Source: Candidatus Troglogloeales bacterium (GTDB lineage: Bacteria > Nitrospirota > Nitrospiria > SBBL01 > SBBA01). Taken from it: a stretch of 32,233 nucleotides of DNA. The notes under the pieces are model-generated. The model was not told where the DNA came from. It saw nothing but the letters and a program-made list of their open reading frames with translations, and made no database searches. The stretch is taken from NCBI GenBank assembly GCA_005239925.1, contig SBBA01000044.1, positions 1-32,233 on the forward strand, read 5' to 3'. The position numbers were made by a program, and so were the translations under genes. Positions 4,861 to 32,233 of this stretch are shown here, piece by piece (the stretch's first letter is position 1; the number at the start of each line of letters is the position of its first letter).

Positions 4861-4910
4861 GTCGCAACGGCGACTCCGAACGGAGCCCTCCCGTTGGTCG
4901 GTCTGGGCAA
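4859..4910. repeat. Degenerate long-form relative of the GTCGG/CCGAC repeat family
   Basis: AAGTCGCAACGGCGACTCCGAACGGAGCCCTCCCGTTGGTCGG aligns with CTAAGTCGCTACGAGC..GAATGGACAGCTCCCGTTGGGCGG at ~17336. Confidence 0.45.
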
Positions 4911-6865: not shown

Positions 6866-7717
6866 ATGACAATCATTGATGGAAAGGCCTTGGCCATAGA
6901 AACGCGTGCTGCCATTCGACATAAGATTGAGGCATCCCATATACGGCCGGGTCTGGCAGCGGTTTTGGTGGGCAATAATCCGGCCTCAAAAATTTATGTG
7001 AACAATAAACGCAAGGCCTGTGACGAGGTTGGCATCTATTCCGAGGCGTGTTTTCTTCCGGAAGAAACCTCCGAGGCCGATTTGTTGGCCTGTATCCACC
7101 GGCTTAATAACGACCCCAAGATTCATGGCATTCTGGTGCAACTCCCCTTGCCCAAACCCATCAACGAACGGGTTGTTTTAGATGCCGTGGCCCCCGAAAA
7201 GGACGTGGACGGATTTCATTATGTCAACGTTGGAAAATTGGTGGCAAACGAGCCGGGGCTTCGTTCCTGTACCCCACTGGGGGTTATTAAATTGATTCAA
7301 TCTACGAAAGTCGCCATCGCAGGCTCTCATGCAGTCGTTATGGGCCGAAGCAATATTGTGGGAAAACCCACGGCGCTTCTGCTACTACATGAACATGCGA
7401 CCGTAACCCTTTGTCACTCCAAAACAAAGGATATTGCCGCTGTTTGTCGCACGGCGGATATTTTGGTTGCCGCCATTGGAAGGCCCCGGTTTGTCACTAA
7501 AGAGATGATCAAGGAAGGGGCGGTGGTGATTGATGTGGGGATCAATCGGCTTCCCGATGGGAAGATTGTCGGCGACGTTGATTTTGAGGCGGTTGCGCCA
7601 CATGCGGCAGCGATTACACCTGTACCGGGCGGTGTAGGGCCCATGACCATTGCCATGTTGTTGCAGAATACATTGCAGGCCGCGATTTGGGCCGATGAAA
7701 GGAACGGTCGTGGATAA
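6866..7717 (+). CDS. folD: Bifunctional methylenetetrahydrofolate dehydrogenase/cyclohydrolase FolD
   Basis: VQLPLPKPIN, PEKDVDGFHYVNVGKL, GRSNIVGKP, TPVPGGVGPMT motifs; RBS gagaggag upstream of ATG 6866. Confidence 0.95.
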   Translation: MTIIDGKALAIETRAAIRHKIEASHIRPGLAAVLVGNNPASKIYVNNKRKACDEVGIYSEACFLPEETSEADLLACIHRLNNDPKIHGILVQLPLPKPINERVVLDAVAPEKDVDGFHYVNVGKLVANEPGLRSCTPLGVIKLIQSTKVAIAGSHAVVMGRSNIVGKPTALLLLHEHATVTLCHSKTKDIAAVCRTADILVAAIGRPRFVTKEMIKEGAVVIDVGINRLPDGKIVGDVDFEAVAPHAAAITPVPGGVGPMTIAMLLQNTLQAAIWADERNGRG

Positions 7718-8540
7718 AGTTACGGTACCACTTATTCGAGAAAAAAAGGTCGGGACGCCGACTGCGGTCGGGACGCCGACTGCGGGTGGAAAGATTTCCG
7801 CAGTAACCGCTTATGACTACCCATTTGCAAAGATCATTGACGAGGCTGGTATTGATATTATCCTGGTAGGCGACTCCGTAGGGGTTGTTGTGGCAGGTGA
7901 GGAGAACACCCTTTCTGTCACGATGGATCAGATGATCTATCATACCCGGATGGTGAGCCGCGCCGTGAAAAGGGGGCTGGTGGTTGGCGATATGCCGTTT
8001 CTTTCGTATCAGACCTCCATGGAAGAAACCATCCGTAATGCGGGCCGTTTCTTAAAAGAGGGGGGCGCAGCGGCCGTAAAGTTAGAAGGAGGCGCTTCGG
8101 TAGCCGACCGGATTGAGGCGTTGACCAACTATGATATTCCAGTGGTGGCGCATATCGGTTTAACGCCGCAGTCCATCCATCGCATGGGTGGGTATAAGAT
8201 TCAGGGACGCAATGAACGTCAGGCGCGGCGGCTGCTTGCGGACGCCAAGACATTGGAGTCGGCGGGTGCCTTTGCGATTGTTCTGGAATGTATTCCGATG
8301 GGGCTGGCAAAAGAGATCACGCACACCATTCATATTCCGACAATTGGAATTGGCGCCGGACCGGATTGCGACGGACAGATATTGGTTTTACATGATTTAC
8401 TGGGCCTGTCCCCTGGGACGCGCAAGTTTGTTCGCCGCTATGCCGACTTCACCACCCTTGCGCAGGAGGCTCTCTTGCGCTTTAAGTCGGATGTTGAATC
8501 TGGAAAATTCCCCGCGCCGGAAGAGGGGTTTAAAGAGTAG
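7710..8540 (+). CDS. panB: 3-methyl-2-oxobutanoate hydroxymethyltransferase (ketopantoate hydroxymethyltransferase), with in-frame repeat insertion near N-terminus
   Basis: KISAVTAYDYPFAKIIDEAG, VGDSVGVV, KLEGG, HIGLTPQ motifs; start GTG 7710 or ATG 7695, overlapping folD. Confidence 0.93.
   Translation: MDKVTVPLIREKKVGTPTAVGTPTAGGKISAVTAYDYPFAKIIDEAGIDIILVGDSVGVVVAGEENTLSVTMDQMIYHTRMVSRAVKRGLVVGDMPFLSYQTSMEETIRNAGRFLKEGGAAAVKLEGGASVADRIEALTNYDIPVVAHIGLTPQSIHRMGGYKIQGRNERQARRLLADAKTLESAGAFAIVLECIPMGLAKEITHTIHIPTIGIGAGPDCDGQILVLHDLLGLSPGTRKFVRRYADFTTLAQEALLRFKSDVESGKFPAPEEGFKE
7749..7784 (+). repeat. Two perfect tandem copies of 18-nt hairpin module inside panB
   Basis: (GTCGGGACGCCGACTGCG)x2, translated VGTPTAVGTPTA. 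Confidence 0.97.
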
Positions 8541-11457: not shown

Positions 11458-11604
11458 GCATGCCTACAGCGACCGCAGTCGGTGTTCCGCCCGACGGAAC
11501 CGGTGCCAATGGGCACTCCGAGCGACCCGGCCAATTGGGTCGGAAAATCTACAAGCGTCATGGCCAAAACCAACACCGCATGCCCACCGCGCCCAACGGA
11601 AGCC
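11458..11604. repeat. Cluster of long-form GTCGG/CCGAC-family repeats, one complete and one with the 18-nt core missing
   Basis: ACAGCGACCGCAGTCGGTGTTCCGCCCGACGGAACCGGTGCC (from 11466) and GCCCACCGCGCCCAACGGAAGCC (11582-11604). Confidence 0.7.
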
Positions 11605-15082: not shown

Positions 15083-15100
15083 GTCGGGACGCCGACTGCG
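15083..15100 (+). repeat. Single 18-nt hairpin module just 3' of the alpha-subunit gene
   Basis: GTCGGGACGCCGACTGCG, identical to the panB units. Confidence 0.95.
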
Positions 15101-16423: not shown

Positions 16424-16509
16424 GTCATTCCGGAATGAATTTATCTGGAATCCAGGGTTACGCCATTTCGGACAGCCCTGGATTCCGGCTTAAAAATTGC
16501 CGGAATGAC
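16424..16509. repeat. Dispersed GTCATTCCGG...CCGGAATGAC inverted repeat, copy 2
   Basis: GTCATTCCGG...GGAATCCAGGG ... CCCTGGATTCCGG...CCGGAATGAC. Confidence 0.8.
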
Positions 16510-16582
16510 GAACTTTGTCGTAGCCTTAGATTTTTTCTCCGCTCGAAATAACAGAACAAGAGCGTTTTTCCTCGGACACTAC

Positions 16583-17337: not shown

Positions 17338-17410
17338 AGTCGCTACGAGCAGAAGCGAATGGACAGCTCCCGTTGGGCGGGACGCCGCCTGCGGTCGCTG
17401 TCGGCTTGCG
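17338..17410. repeat. Long-form GTCGG/CCGAC-family repeat immediately upstream of the epsilon-subunit gene
   Basis: Core GGCGG-GACG-CCGCC-TGCG at 17376-17393; flanks shared with copies near 11466 and 30375. Confidence 0.85.
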
Positions 17411-17565
17411 GATACAGTTACACAAAAATTACCTACCTAAAAAAGGTAGATGTCACCCACAGAGCGTCTAAACTGCTCTCCACATCAATGGAGACAGAAG
17501 TGTAAGGGTAATGATATACCAGCAACGAAATTGGTGTCAAATAAGGTGTCAGTGACAAATAGAGT

Positions 17566-24974: not shown

Positions 24975-27026
24975 TTACCATTCGACGCCTCCCCAGCGGC
25001 AATCTTTTTTACGGAGGATCAGTGATATGTGACTCCATCCTGGTCCGGGAACCACGGCGCTTCCGTCCGACTTGACCACTTCCTGAATCGTCGCAGTAAC
25101 CTTTGCTACCTTGCCCGCCGCTTCACTTCCGGCAATCACCGGCGTACCCATGACCAGACGAATGGTCGTATACCGCTCAAAAAGCTGCTGAACAATATCG
25201 GATTGCCGGGAAGAGATTTGGCTGATTTGATTCAGCCGATCAAAATCGCGCCGTTCAAACCCCTGCTTCCATTGCGTAAGTAACGCATCCACCTGCTTTT
25301 TATCGGTCTCAGGACGTATGGCGTTTTGCGCGGTTTCGGCGCCTTGTGCAAATAAAGCAAGGGTCTCTTTCAGCGCGATCTCTGCCCCCTGATACCGCTT
25401 CCGGGCCTCTGCCATATTGCTTTGATCAACCGCCTCGTCCCCCTGCGCTAATCTCTTCTCCCCTTTTGTTGCGGTATCGGTCACCTTGCGATAGAGATCA
25501 GGCGCGCACTGTTGTGTATCAACACCATCTGCGATCCCGCGTGCCTTGGATACCTGATCCTGCAATTGTAAAAGGGCCTGACGTGACAAGGCGATATCAT
25601 TCTGCGCAGCCTTTACCTCTTTGGCTGCCTTCACATAGAGACCCATTGCGCTGATTAACTGCCGCTCGGCCTCTTTGTACAGGGGTTCAGCCTCTTCTAA
25701 CGTTGCAAGCTGTTTGGCCTCCAAGATCGCTTTTGCTCCACGGGCATCTGCATCTTTTGCCTTTTCATAGGCCGTATGGGCAATACGCGGGGCGTTGGTC
25801 TGATCCGCATCCCGTCGGGCCGCGATAACCTGACCCTGCAATTTGGCTATTTGGGTTTGCAACAATTGAAGTGTCGGGACGCCGACTGCGGTCGGGACGC
25901 CGACTGCGGCGGAAGAGGGAGGCACCGCAAGAGGGACGCTCTTTTGGGGCTGGGGAAGAGGGGTTGGGTTTTGGAACCTTTGAGGTTCCGATGGACGATA
26001 AAAAAGAAAACCAGCCCCCAATAGAAGAAGTATTCCACAGGATGCCGTGATCCATAAAATACGTCGACGGCCCGGCGCGGCCCGTCCATGGGAGGGCATT
26101 TTCTTCGATCCAGTGCCCTTTGTGTTGGAACGGCCCGTGTGTGCGGGTTGATCCGCCATCAACACCGTTTTCTCGCCTGTTAGAACGGTTTCATCAGGTA
26201 CACCCGTAAACAGGACTGGTAAATTCGTCTTGATCCAGTGGACGAGATGCTCTGCATTGGGCGGCCGTTCCTCTTTTGATTTGCGCAAAAGGGTACGCGT
26301 CATCTCTTGTAGCCGGGTCGGAACACCCGTGGGAAAAACCAACGCAAACTCTTCTGCGGAGGTTAGCCGGGTATTGATGGCGGTCTGGGAGAAGCCATGA
26401 TAGGGGGTCTGACCGGATAGCATCTCGTACAAAACCATGCCGAGTGAAAAAAGATCGGCGCGGCCATCCAACGGCTCCCCGCGCGCCTGTTCCGGTGACA
26501 TATACTTGGGCGTCCCCATGATGTTTCCCGTCAGCGTTACGGAAATTTCGTCGGTCGCCGCGGCAATGCCAAAGTCAGCGATTTTGACATGCCCCGACGC
26601 ATTCACCATGATATTGGCCGGCTTAATGTCGCGATGAATAATCCCATGACGATGGGCATAGGCCAAGGCGTCCGCCGCCTAACCTATCACCGCCAGTGCC
26701 TCGTTTGGGGAAAAACGGCCCTGATTTTTTAGCCGTTGCTTTAAGTCGGTCGCGTCAAAAAATTCCATCACGATATAATTGGCGTCTCCCTCCTGTACGA
26801 CGTCATGGATTCGGATAATATTATCGTGGTCGAGTCGCGCCATGGCGCGGGCCTCGCGTTGAAAGCGGGCCACAAAGGAGGTATCGGCCGATAGTTGGGC
26901 GTGTAGTGATTTAATTGCGACGTGACGATTAAGTGAGAGTTGAACCGCCTCATAAATGATTCCCATCCCGCCTTTGCCCAGTTCCCGTTTTATTTCATAT
27001 CGTCCCGAAAAAACCTTCTTGTCCAT
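24975..27026 (-). pseudogene. Ser/Thr protein kinase with TM and coiled-coil extracytoplasmic region, interrupted by an in-frame TAG at 26679-26681
   Basis: SGRYEIKRELGKGGMGIIYEAV...[32 protein letters not shown]...DFGIAAA; both ORFs are in the same frame. Confidence 0.85.
25873..25908 (-). repeat. Two tandem 18-nt hairpin modules inside the STPK gene, opposite orientation to panB
   Basis: (GTCGGGACGCCGACTGCG)x2 on the plus strand; reads AVGVPTAVGVPT in the kinase frame. Confidence 0.97.
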
Positions 27027-28676: not shown

Positions 28677-28722
28677 GTAGGGGCGACCCGGTGGCCGGAA
28701 CGCCGGCTGCGGGGTCGCCCTA
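28677..28722. repeat. Nested repeat: GTAGGGGCG-family palindrome with an 18-nt module variant in its loop
   Basis: GTAGGGGCGACC-CGGTG-[GCCGGAACGCCGGCTGCG]-GGGTCGCCCTA. Confidence 0.85.
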
Positions 28723-29488: not shown

Positions 29489-32233
29489 CTACGTCGTTAA
29501 CCGCTTGTAAATCCGAGGCAGCTTTTTCGGTAGGGACTCTACCCTGTCCACGACCAAATAGGCCACGTCGCCATACATGCCCGGGAGATACTCGGCCCCT
29601 TCACGATCCACCGTGATACAAAAGGGATGAATCCCCAGTTGCCGGGCCTCGCTTAACGCCTTCTTAACATCGGCATAGGCGTACGAGCCTTTGTAATGAT
29701 CGTCCAAAGGCTTCCCATCCGACAGCAGCACCAGAATCTTTGTTTGCGCCGTCTCATTGGAAAGTTTTGATAGGGTGTGACGAATCGCAGCGCCGTCCCT
29801 GTTTTGCCACAGCGGGTTCATGCTGCCAATGGAACGATCCACCTGCCTCGTCAACTTTTGATCAAAATCTTTTAGAATATAAAAATCGACGGCCTCGTTA
29901 CTCCGTCCTGAAAAACCGTACAGGGCAAACCGATCCCCAATGGCGGAAAGGGCGTGGGAGAGCAATATCAACGCCTCCTTTTCAATCTGCAAAACCGATT
30001 TGCCGGAAGATAAGCGTCGCTGTGTCGAGCCGGATAGATCAACCAAAAAGGCCGCGGCGACTGATCGTTCCTTCTTACGCCGCTCGGTATAAATGCGTCC
30101 GGAAGGAGACCGCCCGGCCCAGGCCTCCACACGATGCTCCATGAGGCGGTCCAAATCAATCCCGTCCCCCTCCAACACCCCCTTACACAAAACCACCCCT
30201 TCGGGGGCGAGATATTGAAACCCGCGCTTAATTGATTTGATAATCCCGCCGTACTCAGCCATCATATTTTCAACAAAATCCTCCCCTCCAAAAACAGGCG
30301 GCTCCTTTTCATAAATACGACAAAACCCCACCCGATACTCATCCACCTCACAATCCCACTCAGGCACAACGGTGTCAGCGAACGGACCGCTTCCGTTGGG
30401 CGGGACGCCGCCTGCGGGCGCGGTGGGCGTACCAGAGTTTTCAGTCTTAACAGTTTGCTCTTCCACCAACATAGAATCAGCAGGTGTTTTGGTTTCGGGG
30501 CCCCCTTTAGAAGATATGAGCTCCGCGCCTTTCATCTCTTGAATCAGCAAGTCACGCGCCCTCTTCTCAACACGTTTTGGATCAATGTCACCACGCACGG
30601 TAAATCGTGTTTTTCCCGACTCCGTGCCTGATCCTTTGACTTGATCTCCCTTCTCTTCAAAGGCCTCCATAGGCTTGGAAATATCAGGAGGTGGCGTGCC
30701 ATCATCCAGCAGATCATAGACAGCCTTGGCCGCTCTCATCGAATAAGTAACGTCTGCACTCACGCTTTGCACTGCGCCCATGATTCTGCAACATTCGAAG
30801 ACGGTTTGAACAAGCTCTGATGGGATCGGGGCAATCGTTTTCCCAGCCAATGATATCTGTGCAAGCAGTTCGGTTATCATCTGGCTACGAGGCGCTTGGG
30901 GCGATAGGAGAGGCCGGTGGGCCAGCTCGCCTTCCCGCAATCGGATAAAGGATTCTCGAAGCCCTGGGTATTCTTCCTTAAGGAGAAATTCAATCCGCGC
31001 CCCCTCGGCAATATCAAAAAGTTGTTTGATCAAGGTCTGATTGGGAAAGATATCCAAAAAGGATGCAAGGGTATTCTGGCTTACCGACGCCTCCCTTCCC
31101 CCCTCTTTCCCATCCCTCCCCTTCAAGGGGAGGTTAGGTGGGGATGGGTTGTAGGGGAGAGATTGGGTGAGGGGGAGCGGGCGCGATGATGCCAACAGAG
31201 GTTTTATCAGATCAGCGACTTTTTCTGCATTCGGCCAAAATGTATTAAACTCTATATACCCCGCCTGAAATGCTGTTGCCACCTTGTACCACTCCCGATT
31301 TTGGACTGGGTCTTCATAGAAGGCGATATGTGATGGAAGATAAATCGTATGGCCGTCAGTCGTAGGGGCGCACGGCCGTGCGCCCCTCTCCTCGTCGGGG
31401 TCATCAATTGCCTTCAGGATCACCGGTCGGCCCGATAGGGCCCTGGCAAACGGTTCCAGGACATTGATATAAGAGGCAAGAAAGACCCCGCCTTTTAAAC
31501 GGTTTGCAAACTCTTTTGCTGCCGCAGACTCCAACGTGAAATAGCGAAACCCGCCGCCTGCCTTCATCAGGGCAATGCCGTGATCAATCCATTCTAAGAA
31601 AGAATCTGCCCTCACCTCGGCCATAATCTTTGGGGTATTCATGAACAACCCCTTTGCAATATCCACGTCAACTATGGCGATCTGCAAGGTCTTTTTCAGA
31701 AAGGGCGCAATAAGCGCAGCAGGTAGTGGGGAAAGGATTTGTGCCGATGTAGTAAAGAGGGTGATGGCCCGCTCTGGAGAGACGGCCAGCATTTCATTAA
31801 TCAGCGCCAGCAGGGGGGCGGCATCGGCATTTATTTTGGAAAAAATTTCGGAAGAGGTACGAATAAAGGTAATGGCAAAAAAGAGTTTATCAACGGCAAA
31901 TTTTTTTGCCACATCTACCCAGACAGGAAGCAATGGCATGGGGAGATGTTTTAACAGGGAGGGGGTGGCGTTGAAATATTCCACGGCCAGGGTGTAGTCG
32001 GTCAGTGTAAATCCGTACTGAGCCCATGTATGAAGGGCGTTGCTATCGGAGCTGACATCGGCAAGAAACGAAGGGGCCTGTTGGTAGTAACAAAGCGCCA
32101 AGTTGGGGTGTGTCTGTGCCCATTTAAGGCCCAGTTGAATAAACGCCTTTCGCGCCGCTGGGTCTGGTATTTTGGATAGCCGTATTGGCCCATCGCGGAA
32201 ATAACGGATGCCAGATGCCGTAGAGTGCTGGGC
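29489..32233 (-). CDS. NorD/CbbO-like VWA-domain protein, N-terminus beyond right edge; carries three in-frame repeat insertions
   Basis: C-terminal VWA: FLVDLSGSTQRR...ILVLLSDGKPLDDHYKGSYAYADVKKALSEARQLGIHPFCITVDREGAEYLPGMYG. Frame is open from 32101 to 32233, so the ORF-track start is artificial. Confidence 0.85.
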   Translation of the reverse strand, partial: AQHSTASGIRYFRDGPIRLSKIPDPAARKAFIQLGLKWAQTHPNLALCYYQQAPSFLADVSSDSNALHTWAQYGFTLTDYTLAVEYFNATPSLLKHLPMPLLPVWVDVAKKFAVDKLFFAITFIRTSSEIFSKINADAAPLLALINEMLAVSPERAITLFTTSAQILSPLPAALIAPFLKKTLQIAIVDVDIAKGLFMNTPKIMAEVRADSFLEWIDHGIALMKAGGGFRYFTLESAAAKEFANRLKGGVFLASYINVLEPFARALSGRPVILKAIDDPDEERGARPCAPTTDGHTIYLPSHIAFYEDPVQNREWYKVATAFQAGYIEFNTFWPNAEKVADLIKPLLASSRPLPLTQSLPYNPSPPNLPLKGRDGKEGGREASVSQNTLASFLDIFPNQTLIKQLFDIAEGARIEFLLKEEYPGLRESFIRLREGELAHRPLLSPQAPRSQMITELLAQISLAGKTIAPIPSELVQTVFECCRIMGAVQSVSADVTYSMRAAKAVYDLLDDGTPPPDISKPMEAFEEKGDQVKGSGTESGKTRFTVRGDIDPKRVEKRARDLLIQEMKGAELISSKGGPETKTPADSMLVEEQTVKTENSGTPTAPAGGVPPNGSGPFADTVVPEWDCEVDEYRVGFCRIYEKEPPVFGGEDFVENMMAEYGGIIKSIKRGFQYLAPEGVVLCKGVLEGDGIDLDRLMEHRVEAWAGRSPSGRIYTERRKKERSVAAAFLVDLSGSTQRRLSSGKSVLQIEKEALILLSHALSAIGDRFALYGFSGRSNEAVDFYILKDFDQKLTRQVDRSIGSMNPLWQNRDGAAIRHTLSKLSNETAQTKILVLLSDGKPLDDHYKGSYAYADVKKALSEARQLGIHPFCITVDREGAEYLPGMYGDVAYLVVDRVESLPKKLPRIYKRLTT
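30375..30432 (-). repeat. Long-form GTCGG/CCGAC-family repeat in frame in the VWA gene
   Basis: Core GGCGG-GACG-CCGCC-TGCG at 30399-30416; gene frame reads GTPTAPAGGVPPNGSGPFA. Confidence 0.9.
31093..31180 (-). repeat. CCCTCACCC...CCCCTT-GAAGGGG-type repeat in frame in the VWA gene
   Basis: Gene frame reads PLPLTQSLPYNPSPPNLPLKGRDGKEGGRE; contains hairpin CTCCCCTTGAAGGGGAG. Confidence 0.75.
31364..31387 (-). repeat. GGGGCG...CGCCCC palindrome family, copy in frame in the VWA gene
   Basis: Perfect 24-nt palindrome AGGGGCGCACGGCCGTGCGCCCCT; gene frame reads RGARPCAP. Confidence 0.9.

Follow-up and report, generated by a model that had tools for sequence, protein, structure and literature searches.

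What are two perfect copies of an 18-nt hairpin doing in the reading frame of panB, and how did they come to be there? This question arises in a stretch of 32,233 nucleotides (the window), taken from a 2.37 Mb draft genome that is 93.6% complete. The panB gene encodes ketopantoate hydroxymethyltransferase (7710–8540, + strand; Pfam PF02548, E = 4.9e-111) and opens with a GTG start codon at 7710. The initial annotation had placed two perfect hairpins in frame in this gene at 7749–7784, with stem GTCGG/CCGAC, loop GACG and tail TGCG, and had listed the same 36-mer at 25873 and a lone unit at 15083. Exact matching confirmed each of these: GTCGGGACGCCGACTGCG is present at 7749–7766 and 7767–7784 (+ strand), where the pair encodes VGTPTAVGTPTA, and again at 15083–15100, 25873–25890 and 25891–25908. 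All the parts of the hairpin are there, and the single strand folds as (((((....))))).... at -5.1 kcal/mol. At up to 3 mismatches the window holds 9 matches to the 18-mer, compared to 0.01 expected from shuffles.

PanB reads REKK-VGTPTA-VGTPTA-GGKISAVTAYD at its N terminus, the tandem placing the 12 residues of VGTPTAVGTPTA between KK and GGKISAVTAYDY. The insert had been assigned to the segment between KK and K-ISAVTAYDY; this position holds, but the insert proper is VGTPTAVGTPTA without the following GG, which is best read, from sequence comparison, as native linker. This linker has 3 residues in the sister genome (KKGREKI) and 4 in other relatives (KKERGEKI, KKEIGEKI), and the PanB of another relative reads KKQSGQKI at the insert site. 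VGTPTA was absent from every PanB orthologue examined, and the tandem was not found in the PanB of genomes G001–G005 and G009 or of Nitrospirota MAGs. Since other PanBs lack the tandem and their linker is variable, we consider the tandem specific to this genome and located in a variable linker. Alignments to solved PanB homologues begin at residue 23 or 25, just past the insert, and the named PanB matches nearest to that of the window are from Nitrospirota, including Candidatus Troglogloeales. Most likely the tandem adds nothing to PanB function and is simply tolerated as a passenger in the linker that precedes the first core strand. VGTPTAVGTPTAGGK is the PanB peptide that we name for a metaproteome search.

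The second tandem (25873–25908, + strand) is antisense to the C-terminal part of a Ser/Thr kinase gene (24975–26666, − strand) and its reading there, AVGVPTAVGVPT, falls in a linker that follows a hydrophobic stretch. An in-frame TAG (26679–26681, − strand) splits the kinase domain, so this gene may be a pseudogene or reflect an assembly error. The single unit at 15083–15100 (+), which the initial annotation had listed for an element colonising coding DNA, is present but non-coding, inside a larger repeat, T1 (ATTCCGGCTTAAACATTGCCG^G...). An empty T1 repeat, CCCTGGATTCCGGCTTAAAAATTGCCGGAATGACG, forms its unoccupied counterpart at 16476–16510 (+). Units with a GGCGG stem are found in the repeat T2 (CTCCCGTTG^GTCGCTGT) at 17376–17393 (+) and, in a T2-like context, inside a VWA-domain gene at 30399–30416 (+, antisense to the gene). 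A unit with a GCCGG stem lies at 28694–28711 (+), between the arms of a larger hairpin, and a diverged unit, GGCGGAACACCGACTGCG, at 11474–11491 (−), again in a T2-like context. A related hairpin cassette, GTCGC-AACG-GCGAC-TCCG, occupies 4861–4878 (+), on the 5' side of an empty T2 repeat.

A structural family in one lineage

In an unsupervised census of perfect hairpins (5-bp stem, 4-nt loop, 4-nt tail), the top class was RACG with TGCG (n = 102), divided into 68 GACG and 34 AACG loops. The stems carrying this loop and tail include GTCGG, GGCGG, GCCGG, GGCGT, GACGT and others, and GTCGGGACGCCGACTGCG is the commonest member of the family. For the pairing test, the only selection criteria were the loop, the tail and the invariant CG dinucleotides. 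The second stem pair is Watson-Crick in 92% of the copies of the source genome, compared to 34% expected from composition, and a control pattern with loop and tail reversed gave 0 matches. Covariation scored 0.303 over 30 distinct units, versus 0.094 after shuffling, and 0 of 500 shuffles reached the observed value; sliding the partner by 1–3 columns abolishes the signal, which is confined to the unslid structure. It is a structure (variable 5-bp stem, loop RACG, tail TGCG) that is conserved, and not one sequence.

The genome of the window contains 105 copies of the 18-mer at ≤2 mismatches and 0 of the reversed pattern, with 7e-5 exact copies expected by chance, which bears out the description of a dispersed element not limited to a few loci. 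Near copies number 46 in a sister genus of the same family and 3 and 9 in two other families of the order, while all other genomes scanned are at background level. Nothing comparable turned up elsewhere when 197 genomes from the class and 246 from the phylum were scanned. Among the scanned genomes, the hairpin family is thus limited to one GTDB family, with traces in its order. The genomes compared are fragmented MAGs; the full reading covered 1.06 of the 2.37 Mb of the source genome, selected in part because of hits, and 0.47 Mb of the sister. Distinct flank contexts number about 55 in the source genome and 32 in the sister. We also considered and rejected a plasmid source (blastn of the 36-mer returned chance-level matches only, in high-GC genomes) and viral contigs (two exact matches, about chance for such a collection).

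Exact insertions and a proposed mode of entry

Comparison of orthologous genes showed one extra 18-nt block in the sister in each of GuaA, MutY, RecR and pyruvate kinase, while TldD of the source genome has three units (54 nt) beyond its sister orthologue. In MutY, the empty site CAACC^GATCC corresponds to the filled site CAACC-GTAGGCGGCGTCCCGCCT-GATCC, with no duplicated flank; the other sister orthologues are too diverged for base-exact insertion borders. Only sites with a clean, conserved flank were counted as proven insertions, and MutS and the sister MtaB were set aside, as variability around the site prevents a clean insertion from being called. The flanks have a purine at −1 and G or A at +1 and nothing else in common, the upstream flank being nearly free (0.6 bit, at −1 only). 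No target duplication is visible, and the inserts are exactly 18 nt in the readable cases. According to NCBIfam names, the unit-bearing genes include those for MutS, FlhF, a UbiB-like kinase, ribulose-phosphate epimerase and MtaB in the source genome, and for LolCE, YidC and ABC-F in the sister.

Units are also found in and beside structured RNAs. The RNase P RNA of the sister (L240:3747-4327) is 581 nt long, versus 406 nt in the source genome, where it carries no units. The sister RNA has three 18-nt units, one located in the P3 loop and two forming an inverted pair close to the 3' end, as well as two further long insertions that are not units. Two tRNA-Pro genes of the sister are directly adjoined by units.

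These units are dispersed, conserved in structure and confined to one lineage, and repeats as well as orthologues offer exact empty counterparts of filled sites; we think it probable that the units form a family of ultra-small mobile hairpins, each 18 nt long and built of a 5-bp stem of variable sequence, the loop RACG and the tail TGCG. In the mechanism that we propose, each insertion would add precisely 18 nt, after a purine and usually before a G, and leave the target without visible duplication or loss. A putative trans-acting enzyme would recognise loop and tail on a single-stranded hairpin copy (RNA or DNA), and the same enzyme would join this copy into the chromosome. Two secondary routes may add to the copy number, head-to-tail multiplication of units, mainly in genes, and the spread of units in larger palindromic repeats by hitch-hiking or gene conversion. 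Selection would then retain mostly the insertions that are read as bland linkers (VGTPTA or AVGVPT). The chances seem to us even that the 18-nt element itself, recognised by loop and tail and freely variable in its stem, is the unit of transposition, smaller than any described mobile element and entering genes and structured RNAs without target duplication, through a putative enzyme and by way of an RNA or single-stranded DNA hairpin.

Alternatively, an HUH tyrosine transposase (RAYT or IS200-IS605 type) might move the unit as a REP-like miniature element, which we hold to be unlikely, though worth weighing. Such a transposase recognises a hairpin in single-stranded form that is flanked by a tetranucleotide, and our units consist of a hairpin and a conserved tetranucleotide; the absence of target duplication and the insertion next to TGCG, giving tandems, also agree with the single-strand HUH mechanism, and each of the two unit-rich genomes has one Y1_Tnp gene. 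However, these genes are flanked neither by units nor by hairpins of the RACG/TGCG formula, similar single copies occur in the unit-free relatives G004, G005 and G009, and G003, with 9 near copies, has no Y1_Tnp gene. Moreover, neither end of the unit bears a GTAG or CGTC tag, and the almost free upstream flank differs from the strict target of IS200/IS605.

Among candidates for a dedicated mover of the hairpins, the RAYT/Y1 transposase was rejected, as the source and sister genomes have one gene each, without flanking units, and there is no correlation with copy number. Two others were rejected as well: a reverse transcriptase family, present in the source genome and absent from the sister, and Cas1, for which a weak match occurs in the source genome only of the unit-rich pair. 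Since the empty and filled sites are precise, the structure is defined and the host lineage is narrow, comparing a handful of genomes offers a way to look for candidate enzymes.

Copies in larger repeats and in genes

Many copies outside genes sit in larger palindromic repeats, which exist with and without the unit and hold it at a fixed position. T1 (TTGCCG^GAATGAC) was found empty in 40 cases and filled with exactly 18 nt in 8, T2 (CCCGTTG^GTCGGTCT) in 24 and 10, T2b in 13 and 7, T3 (CCGACCAACG^GGAGGGC) in 28 and 6, and T4 in 19 and 3. Insert lengths are only 0 and 18 in T2b and T3, with one other length in T2 and a few others in T1 and T4. The T1 site of G002, from another family of the order, carries the 18-nt unit. 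The stem is tied to the repeat, being GTCGG in T1, GGCGG in T2 and GCCGG in T3 and T4 (chi-square 114), which indicates that many copies moved with the larger repeats and not alone. On repeat trees, which are weak since they were built on about 90 columns, the filled copies are scattered (T1, 13 changes for 13 filled; T2, 17 versus a null of 17.7). Hitch-hiking with gene conversion explains both the tie between stem and repeat and the unclustered filled copies, whereas repeated targeted insertion explains only the latter. The T2 repeats (4861–4878, 17354–17411) hold exchangeable hairpin cassettes of similar formula at one fixed place, with stems CCGCC, GCCCC, GTCGC, GTGGC, CCGCT and GTCGG.

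The hairpin could also have no mobility of its own and be a module of these larger repeats that spreads only in their company, through gene conversion and replication slippage. The many copies within larger repeats, each repeat with its specific stem type, and the related cassettes with other stems at the fixed place in T2 speak for this explanation, which we nevertheless regard as quite improbable. Naked 18-nt insertions occur in MutY, RecR, GuaA, pyruvate kinase, TldD and PanB with no larger repeat around them, and about 38 of the 40 sister arrays lie outside larger repeats; the filled T1 and T2 copies are also unclustered, though gene conversion could erase clustering. Overall, naked insertions account for about 55 contexts in the source genome and for almost every site in the sister, and most of them have the GTCGG stem.

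Under conservative criteria for ORFs, genes contain 37 of the 133 arrays in the source genome and 13 of the 40 in the sister. The idea that the palindrome colonises coding DNA in frame is borne out for the insertions in genes, but most copies are non-coding. The unit equals six codons, and its three commonest stem types are free of stops in all six frames, while the GGCGT type has a stop codon in one frame; a length that is a multiple of three and the lack of stops allow insertions to survive in genes. In 50 coding arrays the six phases are used 14, 16, 10, 6, 4 and 0 times, which is not uniform (P = 0.0004), and the commonest readings are VGTPTA and AVGVPT. Single units and same-strand spacing of 18 nt predominate, and inverted pairs are few. 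Tandems are over-represented in genes (11 of 18 tandem arrays versus 26 of 115 singles, P = 0.0015). This behaviour fits tolerated passengers combined with local slippage, not a designed peptide. In the sister, the tandem units of L237:549-623 have a spacing of 19 nt instead of 18, a difference in tandem period between the genera.

Both unit-rich genomes are fragmented draft assemblies, and an assembly or adaptor artefact of the metagenome could be suspected; we consider this very improbable, given independent stems with compensating changes, inverted pairs, the phase bias in genes and a unit at the same T1 site in another family (G002). That VGTPTA is a selected linker, with DNA similarity as a by-product of protein function, has next to nothing to recommend it beyond the prevalence of the VGTPTA and AVGVPT frames, and it is refuted as a general explanation, since most copies are non-coding, coding copies occupy both strands and five of six phases, and the stems covary as DNA or RNA. 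For mobile hairpins, the insertions in genes offer a route for ready-made six-residue linkers into conserved enzymes, and, in this lineage, indels peculiar to one orthologue may be parasitic and not adaptive.

Relation to other short repeats

By analogy, the 18-nt hairpin would work like the small dispersed repeats (SDRs) of cyanobacteria, a likeness of kind. The SDRs of Nostoc and its relatives are reportedly hairpins of 21–27 nt; they are said to show compensating stem changes, to occur inside mini-transposons and tandem arrays, to belong to one clade and to be thought mobile. Both are tiny, dispersed, covarying hairpins found in mini-transposon-like repeats, tandems and structured RNAs of a single clade. 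Our unit is shorter than the SDRs, and its sequence and phylum differ. It also differs in its exact in-frame insertions into conserved enzymes, demonstrated here by orthologous empty sites, and in a length that is a multiple of three with stop-free commonest stem types. The SDR work (Elhai et al. 2008, Genome Res 18:1484) is cited in passages of PMC2884548 and PMC3116915. The movement of repeats of about 20 nt has been an open question since their description in cyanobacteria, and the present hairpin ranks among the smallest DNA elements on record with apparent mobility.

The initial annotation had likened the hairpin to Rickettsia palindromic elements, similar in behaviour and different in sequence. 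Both are palindromic repeats in frame in unrelated genes, and their sequences are indeed unrelated. The size does not agree, since Rickettsia palindromic elements are about 100–150 bp and our unit is 18 nt, which makes them a loose analogue and the SDRs a closer one. Unlike a MITE, the unit has no terminal inverted repeats and no target-site duplication, the insert being exactly 18 nt in the readable cases. In mitochondria, repetitive hairpin-forming and double-hairpin elements are small dispersed hairpins, and those of Allomyces lack flanking duplications, an RNA intermediate having been suggested (PMC2800124). Compared by description, these elements are larger and belong to organelle genomes.

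REP and REPIN sequences are short stem-loops of high copy number, some of them inside genes, including DNA-repair genes, and stems down to 5 bp are on record (PMC3733652, PMC3116915). The unit shares the short stem-loop, the high copy number and the presence of some copies in genes. In contrast to REPs (GTAG/CGTC), it ends in TGCG / CGCA, with CGTY only in the reverse-strand loop; units are mostly single or head-to-tail and not head-to-head pairs, and the RAYT gene is not flanked by them. The larger hairpin AGGGGCGACCC...GGGTCGCCCT of the window (28684–28721) is preceded by GT and resembles a GTAG-type REP. The window also contains a 141-nt direct repeat (1466–1606 and 2654–2794, 89% identical), whose copy at 2654–2794 overlaps the start of the first LptF/LptG-family gene.
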